A program made the position numbers and the translations under genes. Under the pieces are notes generated by a model, which saw only the letters and a program-made list of their open reading frames with translations, had not been told where the DNA came from and ran no database searches. From positions 62,001 to 126,000 of the forward strand of contig JALUXC010000024.1 in the NCBI GenBank assembly GCA_027019165.1: DNA of 64,000 nt, in the 5' to 3' direction. Below, one piece after another: positions 24,754-57,098 of the stretch (position 1 is its first letter; each line of letters opens with the position of its first letter). The DNA is from Pseudophaeobacter sp. (lineage in GTDB: Bacteria; Pseudomonadota; Alphaproteobacteria; Rhodobacterales; Rhodobacteraceae).

Positions 24754-25257
24754 GATATTTCTCTCCCATTCTGCGCCCATTGATGACCTTCGAGCCTCAG
24801 CCCGAGGGGCGCTTGGCCATCAAGCTACCCGCAAGGCGCCGCACTGCCAAGCCCTGCCCCGGTCAATTTCCTGATAGCGCGAACTGAGTCTGTCATGGGC
24901 CGGCTTTTCAAGCCCCTCAGCCTGGCGACAGCACATTTTGCCGCAGGTCCTTGACGACAGCAGCCAGACCAAACCAAGGAAAATGTCCCGTTTAGCCTCA
25001 GGGTTGAGCAGCACAGGGGATGAAGGCGTTGACTCTCAACCCCCTAAAAACACGTTATTTTTCCTAGGGTTTTCAAACCCCCTTTACCAAAATGAGAATA
25101 TCAGGAAATTCATTTACAAACAAATCATTGTTTTTCCGGCGCTTATTCACTTCTTTTCAACACTCTCTATTATGGCCGGTGAGGAAGGAAACGGTTTGAC
25201 ACCTGCGCTGTGGCGCTGTCGGGTGACAAACTGAAGAATAGTCAGGGAGGACTCCAG

Positions 25258-27219
25258 ATGACCACGCAGCCCGAAGGCAAAGTATATCCGCCGTCTGAGG
25301 ATGTGATTGCCCGTGCCCATGTGGACGCGGCCAAATACCAAGAGATGTACGCAGCTTCGATCAAAGATCCCGAAGCGTTTTGGGGCGAACAGGGCAAGCG
25401 GATCGACTGGATCAAACCCTTCACATCGGTGAAGGATGTGAACTACAAATTCGGTGAAGTTTCGATCAACTGGTATGCAGACGGCACTCTGAACGTCTCG
25501 TCCAACTGCATCGACCGCCATCTTGAGACGCGCGGCGATCAGACCGCGATCATTTTTGAGCCGGACGACCCAAATGAGGCCGCTCAGCACATTACCTACA
25601 AGGATCTGCACCGCAGCACCTGCCGGATGGCCAACATCCTGGAATCGATGGGGGTACGCAAGGGCGACCGGGTGGTGATCTACCTGCCGATGATCCCCGA
25701 AGCGGCCTATGCCATGCTGGCCTGCGCCCGCATCGGCGCCATCCATTCCATCGTCTTTGCCGGATTTAGCCCCGATGCGCTGGCGGCGCGGGTCAACGGC
25801 TGCGACGCCAAGGTGATCATCACTGCAGATGAGGCTCCGCGGGGCGGGCGCAAGACTCCGCTGAAATCGAATGCGGATGCGGCGCTGCTGCACTGCAAGG
25901 ACACCGTAAAGTGCCTCGTTGTGAAACGCACCGGCGGTCAGACCACCTGGATTGACGGGCGCGACTACGACTACAACGAAATGGCGCTGGAGGCGGACGA
26001 CTACTGCAAACCGGCCGAGATGAATGCCGAAGATCCGCTGTTCATCCTCTATACCTCCGGCTCCACCGGTCAGCCCAAGGGGGTTGTGCACACCACCGGT
26101 GGCTACCTGACCTATGCGGCGATGACCCATGAGATCACCTTTGACTACCACGATGGTGATATCTACTGGTGCACCGCCGACGTGGGCTGGGTCACCGGCC
26201 ACAGCTATATCGTCTACGGCCCGCTCGCCAATGGCGCCACCACGCTGATGTTCGAAGGCGTGCCGACCTACCCGGATGCCTCGCGCTTCTGGCAGGTCTG
26301 TGAAAAGCATAAAGTAAACCAGTTCTACACCGCCCCCACCGCCCTGCGCGCGCTGATGGGTCAGGGCAATGAGTGGGTCGAGAAATGCGATCTGTCGAGC
26401 TTGCGCCTTCTGGGTACTGTCGGTGAGCCGATCAACCCCGAGGCCTGGAACTGGTACAACGATGTTGTCGGCAAGGGCAAATGCCCCATCGTCGACACCT
26501 GGTGGCAGACCGAAACCGGCGGCCACCTGATGACCCCCCTGCCCGGCGCCCATGCGCTGAAACCGGGCGCTGCGATGAAGCCCTTCTTTGGCGTGCAGCC
26601 CGTCGTTCTTGACCCGCAGTCCGGTGAAGAGATCGAAGGCAATGGCGTCGAAGGTGTTCTGTGCATCAAGGACAGCTGGCCCGGCCAGATGCGCACCGTC
26701 TGGGGCGATCACGAACGGTTCGAGAAAACCTATTTCGCCGACTACAAGGGCTATTACTTCACCGGTGACGGTTGCCGCCGCGATGAAGGGGGCGATTACT
26801 GGATCACCGGCCGCGTCGATGATGTGATCAACGTCTCCGGTCACCGCATGGGCACCGCCGAGGTGGAAAGCGCGCTCGTCGCCCATGCCGCCGTGGCAGA
26901 GGCCGCCGTTGTGGGCTACCCGCATGAGATCAAGGGACAGGGCATCTACTGCTATGTCACCCTGATGAACGACCGCGAGCCTTCGGACGATCTGATGAAA
27001 GAGCTGCGCACCTGGGTTCGCACCGAGATCGGCCCGATCGCCAGCCCGGATGTGATCCAATGGGCCCCCGGCCTGCCCAAGACCCGCTCGGGCAAGATCA
27101 TGCGCCGCATTCTGCGCAAGATCGCCGAGAATGACTTTGGCTCACTCGGGGACACCTCGACGCTCGCCGATCCGTCGGTGGTGGACGATCTGATCGCCAA
27201 TCGCGCGAACAAGGGGTAA
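25258..27219 (+). CDS. acs: Acetate--CoA ligase (acetyl-CoA synthetase)
   Basis: [68 protein letters not shown]. Confidence 0.97.
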
Positions 27220-27223
27220 GGCC

Positions 27224-27907
27224 ATGACAACAGACGTTATGACCCGCCCCGCCGTTCTGATCCTTCTTGGCCCTCCGGGCGCCGGGAAGGGCACTCAGGC
27301 CCGCATGCTGGAAGAGAGCTTTGGCCTGGTGCAGCTTTCGACCGGCGACCTTTTGCGCGCTGCCGTGGCCGCAGGCACCGAGGCCGGCAAGGCCGCGAAA
27401 TCGGTGATGGAGTCGGGCGGCCTTGTTTCGGATGAGATCGTGATCGCCATCCTGCGTGATCGCCTGGCCGAGCCTGACTGCGCCAAAGGCGTGATCCTTG
27501 ATGGTTTCCCCCGCACAGCCGTTCAGGCCGAGGCGCTTGATGCGCTCCTGTCGGAAACCGGCCAGAAAATCAACGCGGCGATCAGCCTTGAGGTCGACGA
27601 CGATGCCATGGTGACCCGCGTTGCCGGGCGCTACACCTGTGCGGGCTGCGGCGAGGGCTATCACGATACCTTCAAGCAGCCGCAAAAGGCAGGCACCTGT
27701 GACAAATGCGGCAGCACCGAGATGAAGCGCCGCGCCGATGACAATGCCGAAACCGTGGCAAGCCGTCTGGCCGCCTATCACGAACAGACAGCCCCCCTGA
27801 TCACTTACTATGGCGACAAGGGGGTGCTGCAAAAAATCGATGCCATGGGCCAGATCGATGAGGTCGCCAATGGCCTGGCAGCGATTGTGAAGACCGCCGC
27901 GCCTTAG
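27224..27907 (+). CDS. adk: Adenylate kinase (long form, Cys-containing LID)
   Basis: LLGPPGAGKGTQA, LDGFPRTAVQAEALD, CAGCGEGYHDTF...CDKCGS zinc-type LID. Confidence 0.95.
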   Translation: MTTDVMTRPAVLILLGPPGAGKGTQARMLEESFGLVQLSTGDLLRAAVAAGTEAGKAAKSVMESGGLVSDEIVIAILRDRLAEPDCAKGVILDGFPRTAVQAEALDALLSETGQKINAAISLEVDDDAMVTRVAGRYTCAGCGEGYHDTFKQPQKAGTCDKCGSTEMKRRADDNAETVASRLAAYHEQTAPLITYYGDKGVLQKIDAMGQIDEVANGLAAIVKTAAP

Positions 27908-28120: not shown

Positions 28121-28405
28121 ATGGCGGACCAAACAACAAATGCCGCAAAGGCTGCCGAGTCCGATAAGGGCTATTGGCAGGCCAATGTGCGCATCATTCT
28201 CATCAGCCTGGTGATCTGGGCTGTCGTTTCCTTCGGATTTGGCATTCTGCTGCGCCCGATGCTCTCTGGCATCTCGGTGGGTGGCAGCGATCTGGGCTTC
28301 TGGTTTGCCCAGCAGGGATCGATCCTGGTCTTCCTGGGCCTGATCTTTTTCTACGCCTGGCGGATGAACCGTCTCGACCGTGAATTCAGCGTCGAGGAGG
28401 AATGA
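28121..28405 (+). CDS. DUF4212 symporter small subunit
   Basis: YWQANVRIILISLVIWAVVSFGFGILL...GFWFAQQGSILVFLGLIFFYAWRMNRLDREF, directly upstream of the symporter. Confidence 0.9.
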   Translation: MADQTTNAAKAAESDKGYWQANVRIILISLVIWAVVSFGFGILLRPMLSGISVGGSDLGFWFAQQGSILVFLGLIFFYAWRMNRLDREFSVEEE

Positions 28406-28407
28406 TC

Positions 28408-30189
28408 ATGGACCAGTTTACCATCAACCTTCTCTTTGTGGGCGCCTCCTTCGCGCTCTATATCGGCATCGCCATCTGGGCGCGTGCTGGCTCCACCTCG
28501 GAGTTCTACGCCGCCGGTCGCGGCGTGCACCCTGTCACCAACGGCATGGCCACGGCGGCGGACTGGATGTCGGCGGCCTCTTTCATCTCGATGGCAGGTC
28601 TCATTGCCTTTACCGGCTATGACAACTCCTCCTTCCTGATGGGATGGACCGGCGGCTATGTGTTGCTGGCGCTGCTGTTGGCGCCCTACCTGCGCAAGTT
28701 CGGCAAGTTCACCGTCTCCGAGTTCATCGGCGATCGTTTCTACAGCCCGACTGCGCGCATCGTTGCGGTGATCTGCCTGATCGTGGCCTCGACTACCTAC
28801 GTTATCGGTCAGATGACTGGCGTTGGCGTGGCCTTTGGGCGCTTCCTTGAGGTTTCCAACACGGCGGGTCTGCTGATCGGCGCCTGTGTGGTCTTTGCCT
28901 ACGCCGTGTTCGGCGGCATGAAGGGCGTGACCTATACCCAGGTTGCACAATACTGCGTGCTGATCATGGCCTATACCATTCCGGCCATCTTCATCTCGCT
29001 GCAACTGACCGGCAACCCGATCCCGGCGCTGGGTCTGTTTGGCGATCACGCCGCATCTGGTGAGCCTCTCTTGGCAAAGCTCGACGCCATCGTGCGCGAG
29101 CTGGGCTTCAACGAATACACCGCCCACCATGCCGACACGCTCAACATGGTGCTCTTTACCCTGTCGCTGATGATAGGCACCGCCGGCCTGCCCCACGTGA
29201 TCATGCGCTTCTTCACGGTTCCCAAGGTGTCGGATGCACGCTGGTCCGCTGGCTGGGCGCTGGTCTTCATCGCGCTCTTGTACCTCACCGCCCCCGCCGT
29301 TGGCGCCATGGCCCGCCTCAACATCACCGACATGATGTGGCCCAATGGCACAAATGGCGAAGCGGTCTCGGTCGAGCAGATCGAAAACGACGCCCGCTAT
29401 GACTGGATGGCCACTTGGCAGAAAACCGGTCTTTTGGATTGGGAAGACAAGAACGGCGACGGCAAGATCCAGTATTACAACGACAAGAACGCCGATATGC
29501 AGGCCAAGGCAGCCGAGAACGGCTGGCAGGGCAATGAGCTGACCAAGTTCAACCGAGATATCCTGGTTCTGGCCAACCCGGAAATCGCCAACCTGCCTGG
29601 CTGGGTGATCGGTCTGGTGGCTGCCGGCGGTCTGGCGGCGGCGCTGTCCACCGCTGCGGGTCTGCTCCTTGCGATCTCCTCGGCTGTCAGCCACGACCTG
29701 ATCAAGGGCTCGATCAATCCGAAGATCTCGGAAAAAGGCGAGCTGCTGTCGGCCCGTGTTGCCATGGCGGTTGCCATCGCGGTTGCCACCTACCTGGGTC
29801 TCAACCCTCCGGGCTTTGCGGCGCAGACCGTGGCGCTGGCCTTTGGCCTGGCGGCGGCCTCGATCTTCCCGGCGCTGATGATGGGCATCTTCACCAAGGT
29901 CAACAACAAGGGCGCGGTTGCAGGCATGATCGCAGGTCTGGTGGTGACGCTGATCTACATCTTCCTGCACAAGGGCTGGTTCTTCATCCCGGGCACCAAC
30001 AGCTTTACGGATGCGGATCCGCTGCTGGGCACCATCAAATCCACTTCCTTTGGCGCGATCGGCGCGATGGTGAACTTCGCGGTGGCCTATGTGGTCTCCA
30101 AATCCAGCGAGCCGATCCCGACAGAGATCGAAGAGCTGGTGGAAAGTGTCCGTATCCCGCGCGGTGCGGGTGCCGCCCAGGATCACTGA
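28408..30189 (+). CDS. actP: Sodium:solute (acetate/cation-type) symporter, VC_2705-like subfamily
   Basis: SSS-family: AGRGVHPVTNGMATAADWMSAASFISMAGLIAFTGYD; MTGVGVAFGRFLEV; AGLLLAISSAVSHDL. Confidence 0.9.
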   Translation: MDQFTINLLFVGASFALYIGIAIWARAGSTSEFYAAGRGVHPVTNGMATAADWMSAASFISMAGLIAFTGYDNSSFLMGWTGGYVLLALLLAPYLRKFGKFTVSEFIGDRFYSPTARIVAVICLIVASTTYVIGQMTGVGVAFGRFLEVSNTAGLLIGACVVFAYAVFGGMKGVTYTQVAQYCVLIMAYTIPAIFISLQLTGNPIPALGLFGDHAASGEPLLAKLDAIVRELGFNEYTAHHADTLNMVLFTLSLMIGTAGLPHVIMRFFTVPKVSDARWSAGWALVFIALLYLTAPAVGAMARLNITDMMWPNGTNGEAVSVEQIENDARYDWMATWQKTGLLDWEDKNGDGKIQYYNDKNADMQAKAAENGWQGNELTKFNRDILVLANPEIANLPGWVIGLVAAGGLAAALSTAAGLLLAISSAVSHDLIKGSINPKISEKGELLSARVAMAVAIAVATYLGLNPPGFAAQTVALAFGLAAASIFPALMMGIFTKVNNKGAVAGMIAGLVVTLIYIFLHKGWFFIPGTNSFTDADPLLGTIKSTSFGAIGAMVNFAVAYVVSKSSEPIPTEIEELVESVRIPRGAGAAQDH

Positions 30190-30310
30190 TCTCCCCCCGG
30201 GGCGGGCCGCCTCCCTCGGTATCATGGCCCGCCCTCTTTTCCTCACCATCCTGTCCGGTCACACTCGGGCAGGATGACTTTTGTCCCGGCTTACCACACA
30301 GGCGACGCCC

Positions 30311-32134
30311 ATGCCCCTTTCACCCGACGGTCTGATCCAGTTCCTGAAGACGGTGCACCCCTATGACAGCCTCGATGTGGCGCGCCTTGGTACGCTGGCG
30401 CCCAGGTTCGAGGTGATCCGCGCCGCACCGGGAGACGAGATCTACGCCCTCGGCAGTACCATGCAGGGGCTCTACCTGGTTCATAGCGGCGAAGTCGAAG
30501 TCTTTGACGAGAACGGTATGACCGTCTCGATCCTGGGTCCGCGAAATTCCTTTGGTGAGCGGGGCCTTACCCGTGACGGCATCGCGGTTACCACGGCCCG
30601 CGCCAATGACGAATGCGCCCTGCTGCTGCTACCGCGCGCAGATTTTGACGCATTGATGCAGGCCGAACCAAAGGTCGCGCGTTTCTTTGACCGTCGCCGC
30701 CCCGGCGGCTCCACCCGGAACAGCCTTGCCACCCGCCGGGTTGGGGATTTCATGGCCCAGTCCCCGGTAACCTGCTCCAGTGGCCTCACCTGCCAGGGGG
30801 CAGCGCAACTGATGCGGGAGCATCATATTTCCTCGGTCTGCGTTACCTCTGGCGATGTGCTGGAAGGCATCCTCACCAACCGCGACCTCACGGAAAAGGT
30901 GCTGGCCGAAGGGCTGCCGATCTCCACCCCCGTTGCGCAGATCATGACCCGTGATCCTTTGACACTGCCCTCCTCTGCAATTGCCTCGGATGTTCTCCAC
31001 GCGATGATGGAGCACCGGATCGGCCATGTGCCGGTGGTGGATTCCGGGCGGCTTTCGGGCATCGTGACGCAAACCGACCTCACCCGCCTGCAGGCGATGA
31101 GCTCGGCCGAGATGATTGCCGAGATTGCCCGCGCAACCGATGCCGAAGCGATGGCCCGCGTCACCGCCCGCATTCCCGCACTTCTGTTGCAGCTGGTGGC
31201 AGGCGGCAACCGGCACGAGGTGGTGACCCGCCTGATCACCGATATCGCCGATGCCGCCACCCGGCGCCTGCTGACGCTGGCCGAAGAGCGCCTTGGCCCG
31301 CCGCCGGTCCCCTACCTGTGGCTTGCTTGCGGTTCGCAAGGGCGGCAGGAGCAGACAGGCGTCTCGGATCAAGACAACTGCCTGATGATCGCCGATGAGG
31401 TTCAGGAAACTGACGCCCCCTATTTCGAAGCCCTCGCCCAGTTTGTCTGCGACGGGCTCAACACCTGTGGCTATGTCTATTGCCCCGGCGACATGATGGC
31501 GAGCAATCCGCGCTGGCGCCAGCCCATGCGCGTCTGGCGGCAGTATTTCGCGGGCTGGATCAAGACACCCGATCCCATGGCGCAGATGCTGGCCTCGGTG
31601 ATGTTCGACCTGCGTCCCATCGGCGGCACCACAGCCTTGTTCACCGGGCTTCAGGAAGAGGTGCTGGAGGCCGCCAGCGCCAATTCGATCTTTGTCGCCC
31701 ATATGATTTCGAATTCGCTGAAACACACCCCGCCACTGGGGCTCCTGCGCGGTATTGCAACCATCCGATCAGGCGAGCATCGCAACACGCTGGATCTGAA
31801 ACACAACGGCGTGGTGCCGGTGGTGGATCTGGGACGGATCTATGCGCTGCAGGCGCGGCTTGCCCCATGTAACACCCGCGCCCGGCTAGAGGCCGCGGCA
31901 GAGACATCCGTGCTCAGCCCTTCGGGTGCGCGGGATCTGATGGATGCCTATGATCTGATCGCCCAGACCCGCCTTCAACATCAGGCCGACCAGATTCGCA
32001 AAGGCGCGGCACCGGACAATTTCCTTGCGCCTTCTGATCTATCCGACTTTGAGCGAAGTCATCTGCGCGATGCCTTTGTTGTGGTAAAAACAATGCAATC
32101 GGCGCTAGGTCATGGAAAAGGAATGCTGGGCTAA
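30311..32134 (+). CDS. cNMP-binding/CBS-pair/DUF294 putative nucleotidyltransferase
   Basis: cNMP-like N-term, two CBS motifs (LEGILTNRDLTEKVLAEG; SGIVTQTDLTRLQ), GlnD-type NTase motif ACGSQGRQEQTGVSDQDNCLMIAD. Confidence 0.9.
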   Translation: MPLSPDGLIQFLKTVHPYDSLDVARLGTLAPRFEVIRAAPGDEIYALGSTMQGLYLVHSGEVEVFDENGMTVSILGPRNSFGERGLTRDGIAVTTARANDECALLLLPRADFDALMQAEPKVARFFDRRRPGGSTRNSLATRRVGDFMAQSPVTCSSGLTCQGAAQLMREHHISSVCVTSGDVLEGILTNRDLTEKVLAEGLPISTPVAQIMTRDPLTLPSSAIASDVLHAMMEHRIGHVPVVDSGRLSGIVTQTDLTRLQAMSSAEMIAEIARATDAEAMARVTARIPALLLQLVAGGNRHEVVTRLITDIADAATRRLLTLAEERLGPPPVPYLWLACGSQGRQEQTGVSDQDNCLMIADEVQETDAPYFEALAQFVCDGLNTCGYVYCPGDMMASNPRWRQPMRVWRQYFAGWIKTPDPMAQMLASVMFDLRPIGGTTALFTGLQEEVLEAASANSIFVAHMISNSLKHTPPLGLLRGIATIRSGEHRNTLDLKHNGVVPVVDLGRIYALQARLAPCNTRARLEAAAETSVLSPSGARDLMDAYDLIAQTRLQHQADQIRKGAAPDNFLAPSDLSDFERSHLRDAFVVVKTMQSALGHGKGMLG

Positions 32135-32162: not shown

Positions 32163-32681
32163 ATGTTTCTGGAACTGATCGCCACCATATTTGCAGGCTT
32201 TGCCGTGGCGGGCGTTGTGATGCTGGTCGGCCTTGCCAGCGGCGGGCGGCTGCCGAAATGGCTGGCGCCGGTGGCAGCCGGTCTTGCCATGATCGGCGTC
32301 ACCATTGCCTCGGAATACGGCTGGTACGAACGCACCCGCGCCGCGTTGCCGGATGGTGTCGTGGTGGCAGAAACAAGCCGGAACAAAAGCCTCTATCGCC
32401 CCTGGACCTATGCGGTGCCTTTTGTCGAACGCTTTGCAGCCATTGATACCGGGAGCGCAAAGACCCATCCTGACCTGCCCGGCCACTACCTGACAGAGGT
32501 CTATTTCTTTGGCCGCTGGGCGCCGGTCAGCAGCCTTGCCGTGCGTTTTGATTGTGCAAGATGGCGGCGCGCCGTTGTTGACAGCGACGCAGGGATGGTA
32601 GCGGGGGATGACAGCGCACTTGATTGGGTCTCCCCCCCCAAAGATGACGGCCTGCTGGGCACCTTCTGCGGAGCGCTCTGA
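32163..32681 (+). CDS. Hypothetical membrane-anchored protein
   Basis: ORF tightly packed between DUF294 and exonuclease genes; two N-terminal hydrophobic segments. Confidence 0.75.
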   Translation: MFLELIATIFAGFAVAGVVMLVGLASGGRLPKWLAPVAAGLAMIGVTIASEYGWYERTRAALPDGVVVAETSRNKSLYRPWTYAVPFVERFAAIDTGSAKTHPDLPGHYLTEVYFFGRWAPVSSLAVRFDCARWRRAVVDSDAGMVAGDDSALDWVSPPKDDGLLGTFCGAL

Positions 32682-34102
32682 TGCCGAAACATCTTAGCCT
32701 TCGCCTGCGGATCTTTCTGTTCTTTTGCCTGATCGCAGTCGCCTCTATCGGCATTGTCGGTGCGGCGCTGTGGATCGGATATGCGCGGAGCAATGATCCG
32801 ACCCTGCTGGATGGGTTTGTCTTTGCAGGGACGCTCAGCCTTTTTGGCATCTTTGGCATCACCGCCGGGATCTGGCTTCTGTTCGATGAAAACGTCGCAA
32901 AGCCGATCGAGCGGCTGGCTGCAGGTCTGCGCGCCCGCGCCCATGGCGGGGTGACCTCGGATCTTGACCAGCAGGCCGCGCGCTATCTTGGCGATCTGGC
33001 CCCGGCCGCCTCCAGCCTTGTGGGGAAGCTCGGAGAGGCAAACCTGAGTACCGCCGAGGCTATCGCCCGCGAAACGGCCCGTCTTGAGGCAGAAAAAGCG
33101 CGTCTGACCACCCTTCTGTCCGAGGTGCCGGTCGCCACCGTCATGGTCGGCCCCGATCACCGGATCGTTCTGTACGATGCGCAGGCCGCAGCGGTCCTGT
33201 CTCAGATCGCGCCCGCGCGCCTTGGTGCTGATCTTGGCGATTACCTAGAGGCGCAAGCGCTGGGGAGTGCCCATGGGAAAATGATCCGCTCCGGGAAGGA
33301 AGTCAGCGCTCGCATCGCCGGAAGCGACGGGCGGCAAACCTACGGGCTGCGCCTCAAGCCGCTTGGCAATGCGCCTGGTTATGTGGTGATCTTTGACAGC
33401 GCTGAGGCGGATATCTCGCCCGAGGCGGCGCGCCCTTTGGTCTATGATTTTGGCCTCCTAAACCCTGTCGCCCGCCAGATCGAGGACCGGTGCCTGTCCG
33501 ATCTGACCTTTGCCGTCTTTGACACAGAAACCACAGGGCTTTTGCCGCACAAGGATCACGTGGTGCAGCTGGGCGCGCTGCGCGTTCTGCGGGGCCGGAT
33601 CGTCGAGGGTGAGGCGCTGAATGTCATTGTCGATCCCGGCGTACCGATCCCGGCTGCATCAACCAAGGTGCATGGGATCACCGATACCATGGTGCAAGGG
33701 GCACCCGACATCGCAGAAGTGTCGCGGAGCTTTCACCATTTTTGCAGGGATGCAGTGATCGTCGCCCATAACGCGCCCTTCGACATGGCCTTTTTGCGCC
33801 GCGAGGCAAAACGGCTGGACCTCACCTGGGACCACCCAGTGCTGGACACTGTGCTTTTGAGCGCGGTTCTGTTCGGCGCCTCGGTGCCCCATACGCTGGA
33901 TGCGCTGTGCGAGCGGCTTGATGTGACCATCCCCACCGCGCTGCGCCACACCGCCCTGGGCGATGCCCGCGCCACAGCAGAGGTTCTGTGCAAGATGCTG
34001 CCCATGCTGGAGGCGCGCGGTTTCAAGTCCCTGGCCGAGGTCATAGACCAAACCCGTTCCCATGGTCGGCTGTTGGAAGATCTGAACCCGGTGGACAAAT
34101 AA
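32681..34102 (+). CDS. Membrane-anchored HAMP/PAS-like sensor fused to a DnaQ-like DEDDh 3'-5' exonuclease
   Basis: Two N-terminal TM segments, linker with PAS-like ARLTTLLSEVPVATVMVGPDHRIVLYDAQAAAVL, then FAVFDTETTGL, VAHNAPFDMAFL, RHTALGDARATAEV. Confidence 0.88.
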   Translation: MPKHLSLRLRIFLFFCLIAVASIGIVGAALWIGYARSNDPTLLDGFVFAGTLSLFGIFGITAGIWLLFDENVAKPIERLAAGLRARAHGGVTSDLDQQAARYLGDLAPAASSLVGKLGEANLSTAEAIARETARLEAEKARLTTLLSEVPVATVMVGPDHRIVLYDAQAAAVLSQIAPARLGADLGDYLEAQALGSAHGKMIRSGKEVSARIAGSDGRQTYGLRLKPLGNAPGYVVIFDSAEADISPEAARPLVYDFGLLNPVARQIEDRCLSDLTFAVFDTETTGLLPHKDHVVQLGALRVLRGRIVEGEALNVIVDPGVPIPAASTKVHGITDTMVQGAPDIAEVSRSFHHFCRDAVIVAHNAPFDMAFLRREAKRLDLTWDHPVLDTVLLSAVLFGASVPHTLDALCERLDVTIPTALRHTALGDARATAEVLCKMLPMLEARGFKSLAEVIDQTRSHGRLLEDLNPVDK

Positions 34103-52087: not shown

Positions 52088-54772
52088 TCAGTTTAACGCG
52101 GCATTTTTGCAGGCAAGAGGCAGGACAACGCGGAAGGCACCGCCGGAGCGTCCCGGCAAGTATGAAATATCGCCCCCGATCCGCTGTGTAATCTCGCGGC
52201 AAATCGCCAGCCCAAGCCCGGCCCCACCGGCACGCTCGGGCCTAACCCTCGAGAACTTCTCGAAAATCATTTGCTGATATTGTGGTGAGATACCACTGCC
52301 ATTGTCGATGAAATCAATGATCACCTGTGGTCCGTCCCGCTCTACGTCGATGGTCAACTCAGGGCTTTCGGCATCGCAGTATTTCTGCGCATTCGCGATA
52401 AGGTTGATAAACACCTGCGCCAGCCGGTCCAGGTCAGAGCTGATCGCGACAGCCTCTTGCCGCGGATCGCGCAGAACGCGGATCGGGGCGTCAAACCCTG
52501 CGACAGCGGTAGAGACGGCGTGATCGAGGACCTCCTGCAAGGTCCCATCTGTCATATTGAGGCTGACCTGGCCGCTTTCCAGCACGCTGAGATCCAGAAG
52601 GTCGTTGAGCAACCGCGTCAGGCGGAGCGCTTCATCGTGAATGATACTTGCATAGCGCGACTTGCCTTCCTGATCGAGCGCGGTGTCATCGCGAAGGATC
52701 TCGGAGAACGCCCTTATTGAGGTCATGGGGGTGCGCAATTCGTGGCTTACCTGGCTCAGAAACGCATCCTTTTGTTGGGAAATCTGGGTGAGCTTTTCAT
52801 TGGTTTCCCGCAACTTGCGGGCGGTACGTGACAGTTCGGCCGATTTCATTTCCAGACGGTTGGAATATTCCAGCATCTGCGCGGTTTCATCGGCAACCGC
52901 CAGAAGATCTTCGACAGAAACCGAGGAGCCGCCAACGATCTGACCGATCATCGCATGGGCGGCAGCCGTGCCGATCGAGGCGCTCAACTCACGTTCCAGC
53001 CGCTCCAGAAACACCGGGGTCGGCTCCGGTAGGCTGCCGCGTCCTCCCTGACGGACCAACTCACGCTGAAAAAAGGCCTGAGCCTCGGTTGCGCCCAGAA
53101 TCCTCTGAGACATGACCATGAGGTCTTCACTTTGCGCGAATGAACCGGTCCAGCCACGTGGCCCCGAGGAGTGATCGAACACATTGACAAATTGCGCACC
53201 CTGCAGACGCTCCATCGGGCTGGGAAAACTGGCAAGCGACACGGCGCAAAACACGACCGTGTTGAGGCTCATGGACCAGATCACCGCGTGCACCGTGGGA
53301 TCAAGAGCTTCAATTCCAAACAGCGCATGAGGGCGCAGCCAGGACAGCCCGAACAACCCGGAAGCCAGAACACTGTCCGGCAGCACGCCGCCACCCAAAG
53401 TCGGCAGAAGCATCGTATAGGCCCAGATCGCAAAACCGGTACTGATACCTGCAAGGGCACCGGTGCGTGTCGCCCCGCGCCAATACAGGCCACCGACAAG
53501 AGCTGGCAGCATCTGGGCCACCCCGGCAAATGAAATCAGACCGATAGCAGCCAGCGCAGCCCCGCCGCCCGACATTTTGTAGTAAAAGTACCCCAGCAGC
53601 ATGATGACCGCGATGGTGATGCGGCGCGTGAACAGAACCACGTTTCGCACATCGCCAGACACCGAGGCCCCTGGCCCCTGGGTGCGCAGCCAAATGGGCA
53701 TCACGATATGATTTGAAACCATCGTTGATAGCGCCATGGCGGCCACGATCGCCATGGAGGTCGCCGAAGAAAATCCGCCAAGAAATGATAGCATTGCCAG
53801 CCCCTGCTGCCCTTCGGCAAGCGGAAGGGTAAGCACGAACAAATCCGGGTTGAAACCTTCTGGCAGCAACTCCAATCCGATGGCGGCTATGGGCACCACA
53901 AACAGGGACATCAGCATCAGATAAAGCGGAAAGGCCCAGGCCGCGACGCGCAGGTGGCGTTCGTCCTCATTCTCCACCACCATGACCTGAAACATGCGCG
54001 GCAGACATACAAAGGCAGCAGCCGACAGGAAGGTGATGGCCGCCCAACGCCCTCCGTCTACCTGCCACTGACCGATACGGGAGGCATCAATGCGCGCAAA
54101 GGTTTCGGACACGCCGCCAGCGATTCCCCAGACCACGAAGATCCCCACAGCCAAAAGGGCAAAGAGTTTCACGACCGCCTCAAGCGCGATAGCGGTGACC
54201 ACGCCATGATGGCGCTCATTGGCATTGAGGTTGCGCGTACCAAAGAGGATCGCAAAGACGGCAAGGCCAACTGCGACCCAAAGAACCGTCGTTGTTTCAT
54301 TCAGGCTTCGCAGGGGGTCTGCCTCTGCAAAGATCGAAAACGACAGCGTGATCGACTGAAGCTGCAAGGAGATGTATGGTGTCACCCCAATCACTGCGAG
54401 CAGCGTCACGCCAATGGCAAGGATGTTGGATTTGCCATAGCGCGCCGACAAGAGGTCGGCAATCGATGTCACCCTCTGGCTGCGTCCGACCCTGACCAAC
54501 TTGCGCAGGCCCCACCACCAGCCGACCATGACCAGTGTTGGTCCAAGGTAGATGGTGACGAATTCCAGTCCCGAACGCGCCGCGTAGCCCACCGCCCCGT
54601 AAAACGTCCAGGCCGTGCAATAAATCGACAATGACAGGGTATAGGTGAGAGGAGAACGCATCCAGGCCGCGCTGGCACCTCGGCTTGCCATCCTGTCGGC
54701 AAGGAAGGCGACAAAGAACAAAAGCGCCACATAGCCAAGGCAGACCAACGCGAGGACATTGAGCGAAGCCAT
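52088..54772 (-). CDS. Sensor histidine kinase with N-terminal sodium:solute symporter-like domain (CbrA-type)
   Basis: SSS-like multi-TM N-term; SHELRTPMTSIRAFSEIL H-box; ANAQKYCDA, DNGSGI, GAGLGLAICREI ATPase motifs. Confidence 0.93.
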   Translation of the reverse strand: MASLNVLALVCLGYVALLFFVAFLADRMASRGASAAWMRSPLTYTLSLSIYCTAWTFYGAVGYAARSGLEFVTIYLGPTLVMVGWWWGLRKLVRVGRSQRVTSIADLLSARYGKSNILAIGVTLLAVIGVTPYISLQLQSITLSFSIFAEADPLRSLNETTTVLWVAVGLAVFAILFGTRNLNANERHHGVVTAIALEAVVKLFALLAVGIFVVWGIAGGVSETFARIDASRIGQWQVDGGRWAAITFLSAAAFVCLPRMFQVMVVENEDERHLRVAAWAFPLYLMLMSLFVVPIAAIGLELLPEGFNPDLFVLTLPLAEGQQGLAMLSFLGGFSSATSMAIVAAMALSTMVSNHIVMPIWLRTQGPGASVSGDVRNVVLFTRRITIAVIMLLGYFYYKMSGGGAALAAIGLISFAGVAQMLPALVGGLYWRGATRTGALAGISTGFAIWAYTMLLPTLGGGVLPDSVLASGLFGLSWLRPHALFGIEALDPTVHAVIWSMSLNTVVFCAVSLASFPSPMERLQGAQFVNVFDHSSGPRGWTGSFAQSEDLMVMSQRILGATEAQAFFQRELVRQGGRGSLPEPTPVFLERLERELSASIGTAAAHAMIGQIVGGSSVSVEDLLAVADETAQMLEYSNRLEMKSAELSRTARKLRETNEKLTQISQQKDAFLSQVSHELRTPMTSIRAFSEILRDDTALDQEGKSRYASIIHDEALRLTRLLNDLLDLSVLESGQVSLNMTDGTLQEVLDHAVSTAVAGFDAPIRVLRDPRQEAVAISSDLDRLAQVFINLIANAQKYCDAESPELTIDVERDGPQVIIDFIDNGSGISPQYQQMIFEKFSRVRPERAGGAGLGLAICREITQRIGGDISYLPGRSGGAFRVVLPLACKNAALN

Positions 54773-55164
54773 CAGTCGTCCTTTGTGCCCTTCCGGGGCC
54801 GAAGATCATCGTTCGCGGCCGCCTGGATCGTCTCCCGCTCAAGTTCTGTCTCCGAATGCCCGCCAGCCGTCCAATGCTCAGCCCAGTGCCGCACGGCTTC
54901 TCCAAAGGCGACACTGACCGCAATAAGCCCGGCCCAGACCAGGAAAACATACGTGATGGCCGAAGACATTTTCATACCGCCATGCGAGCCCGGAGCAGGA
55001 TAGGGATCGGGATCCGGCCACATCAAAGGGATGGCAAAAAGAACCGCTCCGAGGATAGGCAGCAGACGGGCAATATCCATAAGGCGCCGACGGCGGTATG
55101 TGCGTCGCTCGACAAAAGGTGCGGTGCTCTCATCCTGACGCCCTGCCCCATCCCCCCGGATCAT
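54772..55164 (-). CDS. Small membrane protein, uncharacterised
   Basis: Overlaps the kinase start by about 1 bp; two hydrophobic segments. Confidence 0.65.
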   Translation of the reverse strand: MIRGDGAGRQDESTAPFVERRTYRRRRLMDIARLLPILGAVLFAIPLMWPDPDPYPAPGSHGGMKMSSAITYVFLVWAGLIAVSVAFGEAVRHWAEHWTAGGHSETELERETIQAAANDDLRPRKGTKDD

Positions 55165-55234
55165 GACCATCTCCGGCAACGGCAAGGCGGCTCATTCAAG
55201 CCGATCCACTTCCACCCTGTCCGCTTGCAGAATA

Positions 55235-55615
55235 TCATTGGCGACTGGCTTGGGCATGCAGATCACGCACGGCGGTCAGCACCTCAGCATTGGAAAACGG
55301 CTTGGTCATGAAGCGGGTCACCCCGGCCCGTTCAGCCATCTCACGGTCTTTCATCTGCCCGCGCGCCGTCAGCATGAGCACCGGCAGGGCCTTGAGGCTT
55401 TCAACCTCCCGCAGCTCGCGGATGATCTCAAGCCCGCTTTTTCCAGGCAGCATCAGGTCCAGGATCACCAGATCCGGTTGCGCGCTCTGGATCAATTCGA
55501 CAGCACCGGATCCGTCAGCATGAGCATCAACGCTCCAGCCATCGCGGGTCAGAAGGAACCGGATCGCCTCAGTGATATTCGGTTCGTCTTCGATCAGAAT
55601 TACATGTCTGCTCAT
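55235..55615 (-). CDS. Single-domain response regulator
   Basis: HVILIEDEPNITEAIRFLL, LVILDLMLPGKSGLEIIREL, TKPFSNAEVL. Confidence 0.93.
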   Translation of the reverse strand: MSRHVILIEDEPNITEAIRFLLTRDGWSVDAHADGSGAVELIQSAQPDLVILDLMLPGKSGLEIIRELREVESLKALPVLMLTARGQMKDREMAERAGVTRFMTKPFSNAEVLTAVRDLHAQASRQ

Positions 55616-55710
55616 TGGCAGAATTTCCTCCCAGCGCCGCTCCCCGGACCAGTTTGGCCCCAACGCGAATTTTGATGTCGCGCCAGACTACCCCCCGAGG
55701 CAAGCGCCTG

Positions 55711-57009
55711 TCAAAACTCTTCCTTCAGGATCGATGGCTCACGACGGGCCGGGCAGCCGCGCCTTGGACAAATCCGACAACTGGCCCCCACCGGCTGCGC
55801 GTTTTCAGGAATGTCGCTTTGCGGCAGGATCAACATCACCGCATGGTAAAGAGGATCGCTATCGAAATCCGGTGTTGTGCGTTCCCAGGCAACAGCAAGA
55901 CATTCAAAGGCCAGCGCCGAACGCCCCTGTTGAACCACATTGCGCCGGACCGGAACATGCGGACGCGCCAAGGCCGTGTAGATTGGCCACAGCGGGCAAG
56001 AGGCACCAAACCGCGGCAAGGCAAAACCGGTCACCGGTTTTCGCACCAAGATCGACCCAGACGCATCGCAGATCACCAGGCCCGCCTCTTGCCCGAGGAT
56101 TTCAAAGGGCAAAAGACCAAGACGCCGCAGAACCGTTGGCAGATCGCATCCGAAGCGACGCGCCAGGGCCGCAGGATTCGCCCCGTCCTCCTCCAGCGCG
56201 GCTTTCAGGGGGGCAAGCGGCAAGGCTTGGGCATCCCTTTGATATTGCTCCAACGCGCCTCGCGCGATCAGACGGGCAGAATCGCTCACCAGATCGGGCG
56301 CATCTGCGATCAGCTCTTCCGGCGTTGCTGTACCGTCCTCAAGGGCCGGAAAATGATACCCTTGCGCCAGGAAGTAGGCCTCAGCCTCTTCGTGCGGTAC
56401 ACCGCGCCGGTCCGCGCCCGCATTGCTCTCATCCAGAAAGCTGACCAGAGCGCGACTGCTTTCCGCCAGTCGGCGGGAGTCCTCGTTGAGGTTCTTGTGG
56501 AACCGGTCCCGCCATTCAGGTTCCAATTCGCCTGTCTCAGCAAGGATCGAAGCGGTCGAGCGGATCGCCGCCGCCGTTGACAGCACCTCATGCAATGAGG
56601 CCGCCAGATGCGGGTCATGTGTCAGGCGGTCTGACAGGGTTTGCACCGTGCGCTCCAGCGTGGCGATCCGGCGGTGGCTGGTGGCCAGAACCTCGGCCCA
56701 GCCGGGAAAACGGCCCGCAAATTCATCTGCACGGTCCAGCTCTGCCACTGGCACACCGCTGTCCACGGCCGCCTCCCTGAGGTTGGCAATCAGCGCCGCC
56801 TCTGCCCCTTCGCTCAACATCGAGGGTTCCACCCCCAGGACCTGCGCAATATCCACCAGGAGTTTGCCACCGATTCTGCGTCGGTTATGCTCGATCAGGT
56901 TCAGGTAGGAAGCTGAAATACCAGCTGCGCGAGCCAGTTCGGCCTGGCGCAGCCCGAGGATGAGTCGGCGCTCGCGAATTCTGCTACCGGTGAGAGTGTC
57001 CCGTGTCAT
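55711..57009 (-). CDS. XRE-family short-chain fatty acyl regulator (ScfR/RamB-like)
   Basis: IRERRLILGLRQAELARAAGISASYLNLIEHNRRRIGGKLL HTH; C-terminal Cys-rich GASCRICPRRGCPARREPSI. Confidence 0.9.
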   Translation of the reverse strand: MTRDTLTGSRIRERRLILGLRQAELARAAGISASYLNLIEHNRRRIGGKLLVDIAQVLGVEPSMLSEGAEAALIANLREAAVDSGVPVAELDRADEFAGRFPGWAEVLATSHRRIATLERTVQTLSDRLTHDPHLAASLHEVLSTAAAIRSTASILAETGELEPEWRDRFHKNLNEDSRRLAESSRALVSFLDESNAGADRRGVPHEEAEAYFLAQGYHFPALEDGTATPEELIADAPDLVSDSARLIARGALEQYQRDAQALPLAPLKAALEEDGANPAALARRFGCDLPTVLRRLGLLPFEILGQEAGLVICDASGSILVRKPVTGFALPRFGASCPLWPIYTALARPHVPVRRNVVQQGRSALAFECLAVAWERTTPDFDSDPLYHAVMLILPQSDIPENAQPVGASCRICPRRGCPARREPSILKEEF

Positions 57010-57098
57010 TGCAGGCCTTGGCTCCAAAAGGGCGCTATATCAAGCACTTTCCGCGGCGCAGCATAAAAAAGTTTACAGAACACCACGGAATACTGTTC

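Follow-up and report, generated by a model that had tools for sequence, protein, structure and literature searches.

Can a nuclease serve as the output of a bacterial membrane receptor? The question is raised by an open reading frame at 32681..34102 (+) of the window, by which we mean the whole stretch of 64,000 nucleotides analysed here. The ORF runs from an ATG at 32681 to a stop codon ending at 34102 and encodes 473 aa. A first-pass annotation had described the product as a membrane receptor with a nuclease output, in which the front of a sensor kinase (two TM helices, a linker and a PAS-like domain) is joined to a DnaQ-type exonuclease. The reading frame is unbroken in dozens of relatives, at identities down to about 45%, and dN/dS within the genus is low (0.03-0.09 for the HAMP-like segment, 0.09-0.11 for the PAS domain and 0.07-0.12 for the exonuclease). 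Therefore, this is not a chance ORF. Moreover, the PAS domain and the helical linker are constrained as strongly as the nuclease, as would be expected if they control it. The AF2 model, from an alignment of 54 sequences, has a pLDDT of 91.7 and a pTM of 0.89, and from N to C terminus it comprises a membrane helix hairpin, a helix-connector-helix reaching residue 147, a PAS-type fold and the exonuclease. This model, together with profile searches, bears out the sensor-kinase front, and we regard the layout of TM, HAMP-like, PAS and DEDDh exonuclease segments as virtually certain.

The membrane hairpin (32702..32884, +) is evident from sequence hydrophobicity and from AF2 helices at residues 7-37 and 40-89. 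TM1 spans about residues 8-35 and TM2 about residues 43-68, with an outside loop of about 10 residues between them, leaving the protein without a periplasmic sensor domain. Residues 69-147 (32885..33121, +) are modelled as a HAMP-like helix-connector-helix and signalling helix, with helices running to 89, from 97 to 103 and from 106 to 147. The HAMP assignment of the first-pass annotation holds for the position, the predicted helix-connector-helix and a Pro75 signature, but Pfam gives no HAMP match in the window protein and TM2-HAMP of Tsr aligns in register at only E 0.18. We consider a HAMP assignment of the segment after TM2 likely from the model, although it is not recognised statistically.

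A PAS-like domain follows at residues 148-240 (33122..33400, +). The first-pass annotation rested in part on such a domain appearing in a structure prediction, and AF2 places a five-stranded PAS-type fold at 152-238 (strands 152-156, 161-166, 208-214, 220-227 and 234-238). A Foldseek search with the window model returned exonucleases only in its top 50, and the PAS domain therefore had to be checked by profile. In the PDB profile search the region best matches a VicK-like kinase PAS domain (4i5s, E 1.6e-5), and the PAS domains of ThkA, WalK and FixL rank below it. Several relatives exceed the cut-off of Pfam PAS models; the window protein by itself gives no Pfam PAS match. Next comes a linker (residues 246-275; 33416..33505, +) with an RP-x-x-YDF motif conserved in the alignment.

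The DEDDh 3'-5' exonuclease domain occupies residues 276-445 (33506..34015, +). Pfam RNase_T (PF00929) matches residues 279-436 at E 5.6e-34, with 118 bits against a cut-off of 24, and PDB profile matches are to PolC/DnaQ exonucleases (E 2e-29). Foldseek likewise returns DnaQ/PolC, with a TM-score of about 0.84 to E. coli epsilon, and RNase T is also among the matches. The FDTETTGL, NAPFD and HTALGD motifs that had been reported as intact are all present on the + strand, carrying catalytic D281 and E283 (33521..33529), D368 within HNAPFD (33782..33784), and H423 and D428 (33947..33964). These five residues are unchanged in 22/22 and 54/54 aligned sequences, and we predict with high confidence that the protein is a catalytically active phosphodiesterase. 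A role as an anti-phage defence gene was rejected, as PADLOC matches for the exonuclease reach the DEDDh domain alone and DUF294, encoded upstream, gives none.

Relatives of the window protein come in two lengths. The short form, to which it belongs, has about 470 aa, and the long form, found in Rhodobacter capsulatus, Gemmobacter, Paracoccus and Celeribacter, has about 690 aa. The roughly 200 extra residues lie in the PAS-exonuclease interval, ahead of the RP-x-x-YDF motif, and by structure and profile matches are the DHp-CA region of a histidine kinase. With the AF2 model of the long form, Foldseek returns WalK (the top match), VicK and LOV-kinases over PAS-DHp-CA and DnaQ at the end; the overall pTM of this model is 0.40, making its domain packing unreliable. 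The DHp-CA profile matches solved kinases at E 1e-8 and the live kinases of the neighbourhood with an hhalign probability of 98% (E 7e-14), and Pfam detects HisKA in 7/31 long-form relatives. In the phosphoacceptor column none of 51 long forms has His; the residues are Asp (25), Glu (20), Ala (2) and one each of Met, Gln, Thr and Pro. The ATP site is altered as well, with other residues in place of both its N-box Asn and its G1-box Asp. On these grounds a live histidine kinase was rejected for the long form, and for the 473-aa form on the ground that the DHp-CA region is missing.

The TM-PAS-pseudokinase-exonuclease architecture is found across Pseudomonadota; a long-form query matches 42/299 genomes of the phylum at E 1e-40, some via the exonuclease domain only. 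It usually lies beside a stand-alone receiver and a DUF294 nucleotidyltransferase, and a symporter-fused histidine kinase is often among the neighbours too. Taken together, the comparisons show an older form, predicted to be a TM-PAS-DHp-CA kinase-like receptor with a terminal exonuclease, from which the window form descends. As the ancestral form combines a complete kinase-like receptor with an exonuclease, a pathway from receptor to nuclease can be taken seriously as a hypothesis. The proposal of a membrane receptor with a nuclease output thus stands as regards architecture and ancestry, and nuclease activity, a signal and the coupling between them would be its hypothetical parts.

What the dead kinase might do is suggested by its neighbour. 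At long-form loci a stand-alone receiver (PF00072, E 4e-26) is encoded in a 400-bp gap before the exonuclease gene, and the phylum-wide cluster order is DUF294-receiver-sensor-exonuclease-symporter kinase, often with acs and an acetate-type symporter there too. Presence of the receiver and of DHp agrees at 117/120 loci (both present at 50, both absent at 67), counting as present the shortened DHp of two Paracoccus rows. The three exceptions are L111, in an unrelated gene context; L177, with none of the usual neighbours; and L126, where DHp is decaying (RLGAP in place of RVRRP) and the three forward frames upstream encode no receiver. In the exonuclease tree the short clade of the window is nested within long forms, and further losses are seen in L040 (sister to a long form, 99/81), in L130 (Pusillimonas, where DHp is gone and CA retained) and in a clade of L129, L185, L047 and L136. 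By its starred branches the receiver label changes at least five times; many forks of the tree are weak and the number of losses is therefore approximate. An operon-type receiver (E < 1e-27) is absent from all short-form whole genomes of the family sample. The joint retention or loss of receiver and DHp is most simply explained by a receiver whose job is to dock on DHp. The window clade lost both and would have kept a direct PAS-to-nuclease connection. Repeated co-loss of receiver and dead kinase, with one clade keeping the sensor front and the enzyme, is a rare natural experiment.

The gene context points to carboxylate metabolism. The exonuclease gene is the last of an operon, all on the + strand, in the order acs-adk-DUF4212-symporter-DUF294-X172-exonuclease: an acetyl-CoA synthetase (25210..27219; profile match), an adenylate kinase (27224..27907; position and conservation, named from its sequence), a DUF4212 small symporter-associated protein (28121..28405; profile match), a sodium/solute symporter of acetate type (28402..30189; VC_2705 family, TIGR03648, 811 bits), a cNMP-CBS-CBS-DUF294-DUF294_C nucleotidyltransferase (30281..32134; DUF294 E 4e-49) and X172 (32163..32681), a conserved small membrane protein of no recognised family. 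The exonuclease ATG overlaps the stop of X172 in a TGATG junction, and the exonuclease is therefore probably translationally coupled to the operon. Gene order is the same in 20/20 fetched family relatives, as far as each contig reaches, and it recurs in most of 80 named loci (Ruegeria, Leisingera, Phaeobacter, Roseibium, Rhodobacter, Paracoccus and others). A flavin-reductase gene lies 3' of the operon in some relatives only and so probably does not belong to it. We have little doubt that the window protein works in a carboxylate module.

X172 sits between the DUF294 and exonuclease genes in nearly every Rhodobacterales operon. An adenylate kinase gene is almost always part of the Rhodobacterales acs-symporter operon, which fits with acetyl-CoA synthetase releasing AMP and with DUF294 having adenosyl-binding CBS domains. 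The Rhodobacterales-type operon also occurs in the betaproteobacterium Pusillimonas minor (L130) and in two Stappiaceae (Roseibium/Labrenzia, L083 and L088). In the tree, the exonucleases of all three fall among those of Rhodobacterales, indicating probable horizontal transfer of the operon.

The closest partner of the exonuclease appears to be DUF294. The nucleotidyltransferase motif GSQGRQEQTGVSDQD (pattern GSxGRxEQ...DQD) is intact in the window protein. Across 61 genomes surveyed, DUF294 and this exonuclease co-occur in 28/28 cases and neither is found alone, a count that includes one genome (G038) where the exonuclease next to DUF294 matches weakly (E 6e-8). At locus L056 (4509-6776, -) a single protein combines a DEDDh exonuclease, CBS domains and DUF294. 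DUF294 is present in 109/299 sampled Pseudomonadota genomes; among the best 30 matches of the phylum, 18 have a DEDDh exonuclease inside their 1.5-kb flanks and 7 more are of the window operon type, where X172 intervenes and the exonuclease falls just past the flank. Most of these flanking exonucleases are soluble, with about 50 residues ahead of the active site and the sensor absent. A minimal version is encoded at locus L054 (14791-15747, -), divergent from DUF294, with two membrane helices placed straight onto the exonuclease and no PAS domain. Given this protein and the mostly soluble members across the phylum, sensing is dispensable in some lineages. We know of no reaction assigned to DUF294 nucleotidyltransferases and their exonuclease partners. 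Linkage and fusion argue that the two enzymes would share one substrate and act on it in opposition or in sequence. That the exonuclease acts against the product of DUF294 is suggested by the linkage, and we hold it as a possibility somewhat short of an even chance.

The mechanism that we propose is a membrane-tethered, sensor-gated DEDDh phosphodiesterase acting as an eraser against DUF294 in a carboxylate-uptake operon, a reading to which we give about an even chance. What DUF294 makes may be a small oligonucleotide or nucleotides attached to a protein or to the 3' end of an RNA, and the exonuclease would remove or degrade it. For the long form we envisage that the stand-alone receiver, once phosphorylated, docks on the dead DHp and switches the nuclease through the helical dimer; its phosphate would probably come from the symporter-fused histidine kinase encoded nearby, a donor that we guess from the gene neighbourhood. 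In the window clade, with the receiver branch gone, the PAS domain and membrane hairpin would gate the nuclease directly, and the cue may be cytoplasmic, within the membrane, or a contact with the symporter or X172. The outcome would be an adjustment in how acetate, pyruvate or similar acids are taken up and activated. We lean towards regulation of the nuclease activity by the sensor part. The full phylum-wide pathway, from symporter-fused kinase to receiver to dead kinase to an exonuclease opposing DUF294, with the window clade as a streamlined one-protein version, is doubtful as a whole.

Other explanations give the same parts different work. The protein could be a membrane-bound RNA exonuclease that, on a sensor trigger, trims or decays specific mRNAs (of the operon, the glyoxylate shunt or the transporter), to which DUF294 may add 3' nucleotides. 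Hernandez et al. propose a role in mRNA decay for the Pseudomonas putida homologue PP_0353 (PMC9927547), and RNase T is matched as well, with DnaQ/PolC the nearest of the DEDDh folds. Against this, an RNA-binding domain is absent and the C-terminal domain of DUF294 has been grouped with that of GlnD/GlnE-type nucleotidyltransferases (PMC3710099); we consider the RNA reading unlikely. Slightly less probable still is a sensor part that does no signalling and is a mere membrane tether, placing a constitutive DUF294-partner exonuclease beside the symporter. The minimal L054 protein, the periplasmic loop too short for an outside sensor and the soluble relatives that manage without a sensor part all fit such a tether. 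Strong purifying selection on the PAS and HAMP-like segments does not, and the strict co-retention of receiver and DHp points to a signalling input in the long forms.

The exonuclease domain might also have become a non-cutting binding scaffold, with the protein acting by contact with the symporter or DUF294. No activity has been reported, and the neighbouring kinase domain clearly died yet persisted as a scaffold; unlike that pseudokinase, however, the exonuclease retains its catalytic residues in every aligned relative, and we judge a scaffold very unlikely. A general DNA repair or proofreading exonuclease resembling DNA polymerase III epsilon, lying in the operon by chance, is scarcely credible despite the DnaQ-like family. 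The protein scores 111 bits against a dnaQ_proteo cut-off of 222.7, the genome has a separate epsilon-like gene (contig C25, an open frame of 253 aa), and the operon position is conserved in relatives.

The physiology of the soluble Pseudomonas homologues bears on the eraser reading. Exonucleases of the PP_0353/PA3232 type lie beside DUF294 (PP_0354/PA3233) in the MxtR/ErdR regulon, giving the same RNase_T and CBS-DUF294 pairing, and in some species lie beside actP and are co-regulated with it (PMC9927547, PMC8402216, PMC9765439). As described, they consist of an RNase_T domain only, with no known secretion signal, to which the window protein adds an anchor, HAMP-like helices and a PAS domain. 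Deletion of PP_0353 in P. putida leaves growth on 20 mM acetate unaffected and delays growth on pyruvate, as deletion of actP-I likewise does, and a pp_0354 mutant has no acetate phenotype (PMC9927547). PP_0354 is acetate-induced, and ErdR binds its promoter (PMC8402216), and the PA3232-PA3235 cluster is up about 16-fold on propionate (PMC9765439). The missing acetate phenotype of pp_0354 and the pyruvate-only effect of pp_0353 count against a writer/eraser model. Moreover, the first-pass annotation had proposed an acetate growth phenotype, which, given the pyruvate defect of the soluble homologue (PMC9927547), may be the wrong one.

Each part of the window protein belongs to a known family, and there are precedents for sensor proteins whose outputs have been swapped. 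CrbS/MxtR symporter-fused kinases with CrbR/ErdR share its gene neighbourhood and carboxylate biology and are the probable phosphate donors to the receiver; CrbS combines a live kinase with a symporter, whereas the window protein has neither domain. WalK/VicK share the TM-HAMP-PAS-DHp-CA order of the long form, which differs in having lost phosphoacceptor and ATP-site residues and gained an exonuclease; the window form lacks DHp-CA altogether. NifL and the kinase-like modules of plant phytochromes, both Foldseek matches of the long form, are pseudokinases in which the kinase fold is a non-phosphorylating signalling module, and they have no nuclease output. GdpP is a c-di-AMP phosphodiesterase with the order TM-PAS-degenerate GGDEF-DHH/DHHA1. 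Like the long form it joins a membrane anchor, a PAS domain and a decayed signalling-enzyme domain to a phosphodiesterase output of a nuclease superfamily, but the output is DHH/DHHA1 in place of RNase_T, the decayed domain is GGDEF and not a histidine kinase, and the gene context is another. GlnD is a bifunctional uridylyltransferase/uridylyl-removing enzyme whose remover is an HD domain. It pairs a writer nucleotidyltransferase related to DUF294 with a nucleotide-removing hydrolase, as the L056 fusion might, and differs from our proposal in that the remover here would be a DEDDh exonuclease. By analogy, GdpP would be the nearest functional counterpart and GlnD the nearest logical one for the writer/eraser idea.

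In the open-licence PMC literature searched we found no description of a HAMP/PAS-exonuclease or a pseudokinase-exonuclease, and a survey of signalling helices does not mention nucleases. The arrangement of receiver, dead kinase and exonuclease appears undescribed in that literature and, if confirmed, would be a new mode of signalling. The architecture and relatives suggest that a nuclease can serve as the output of a bacterial membrane receptor; if the full phylum-wide pathway is real, the output of a two-component pathway would be enzymatic nucleotide removal and not transcription. DUF294 and its exonuclease partners are common in Pseudomonadota, inside acetate/pyruvate uptake regulons. Were the exonuclease a gated eraser, a nucleotidyl switch for carboxylate uptake would lie under the control of a membrane receptor.

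Lastly, the window contains a second carboxylate-signalling cluster 18 kb downstream, at 52088-57027 (-). It encodes a symporter-fused CrbS/MxtR-like histidine kinase with HELRTP intact (52088-54772, -), a stand-alone receiver with 40% identity to the long-form operon receiver (55235-55663, -), a ScfRs-type short-chain fatty acyl-CoA HTH regulator (55711-57027, -) and, besides these, a small ORF.
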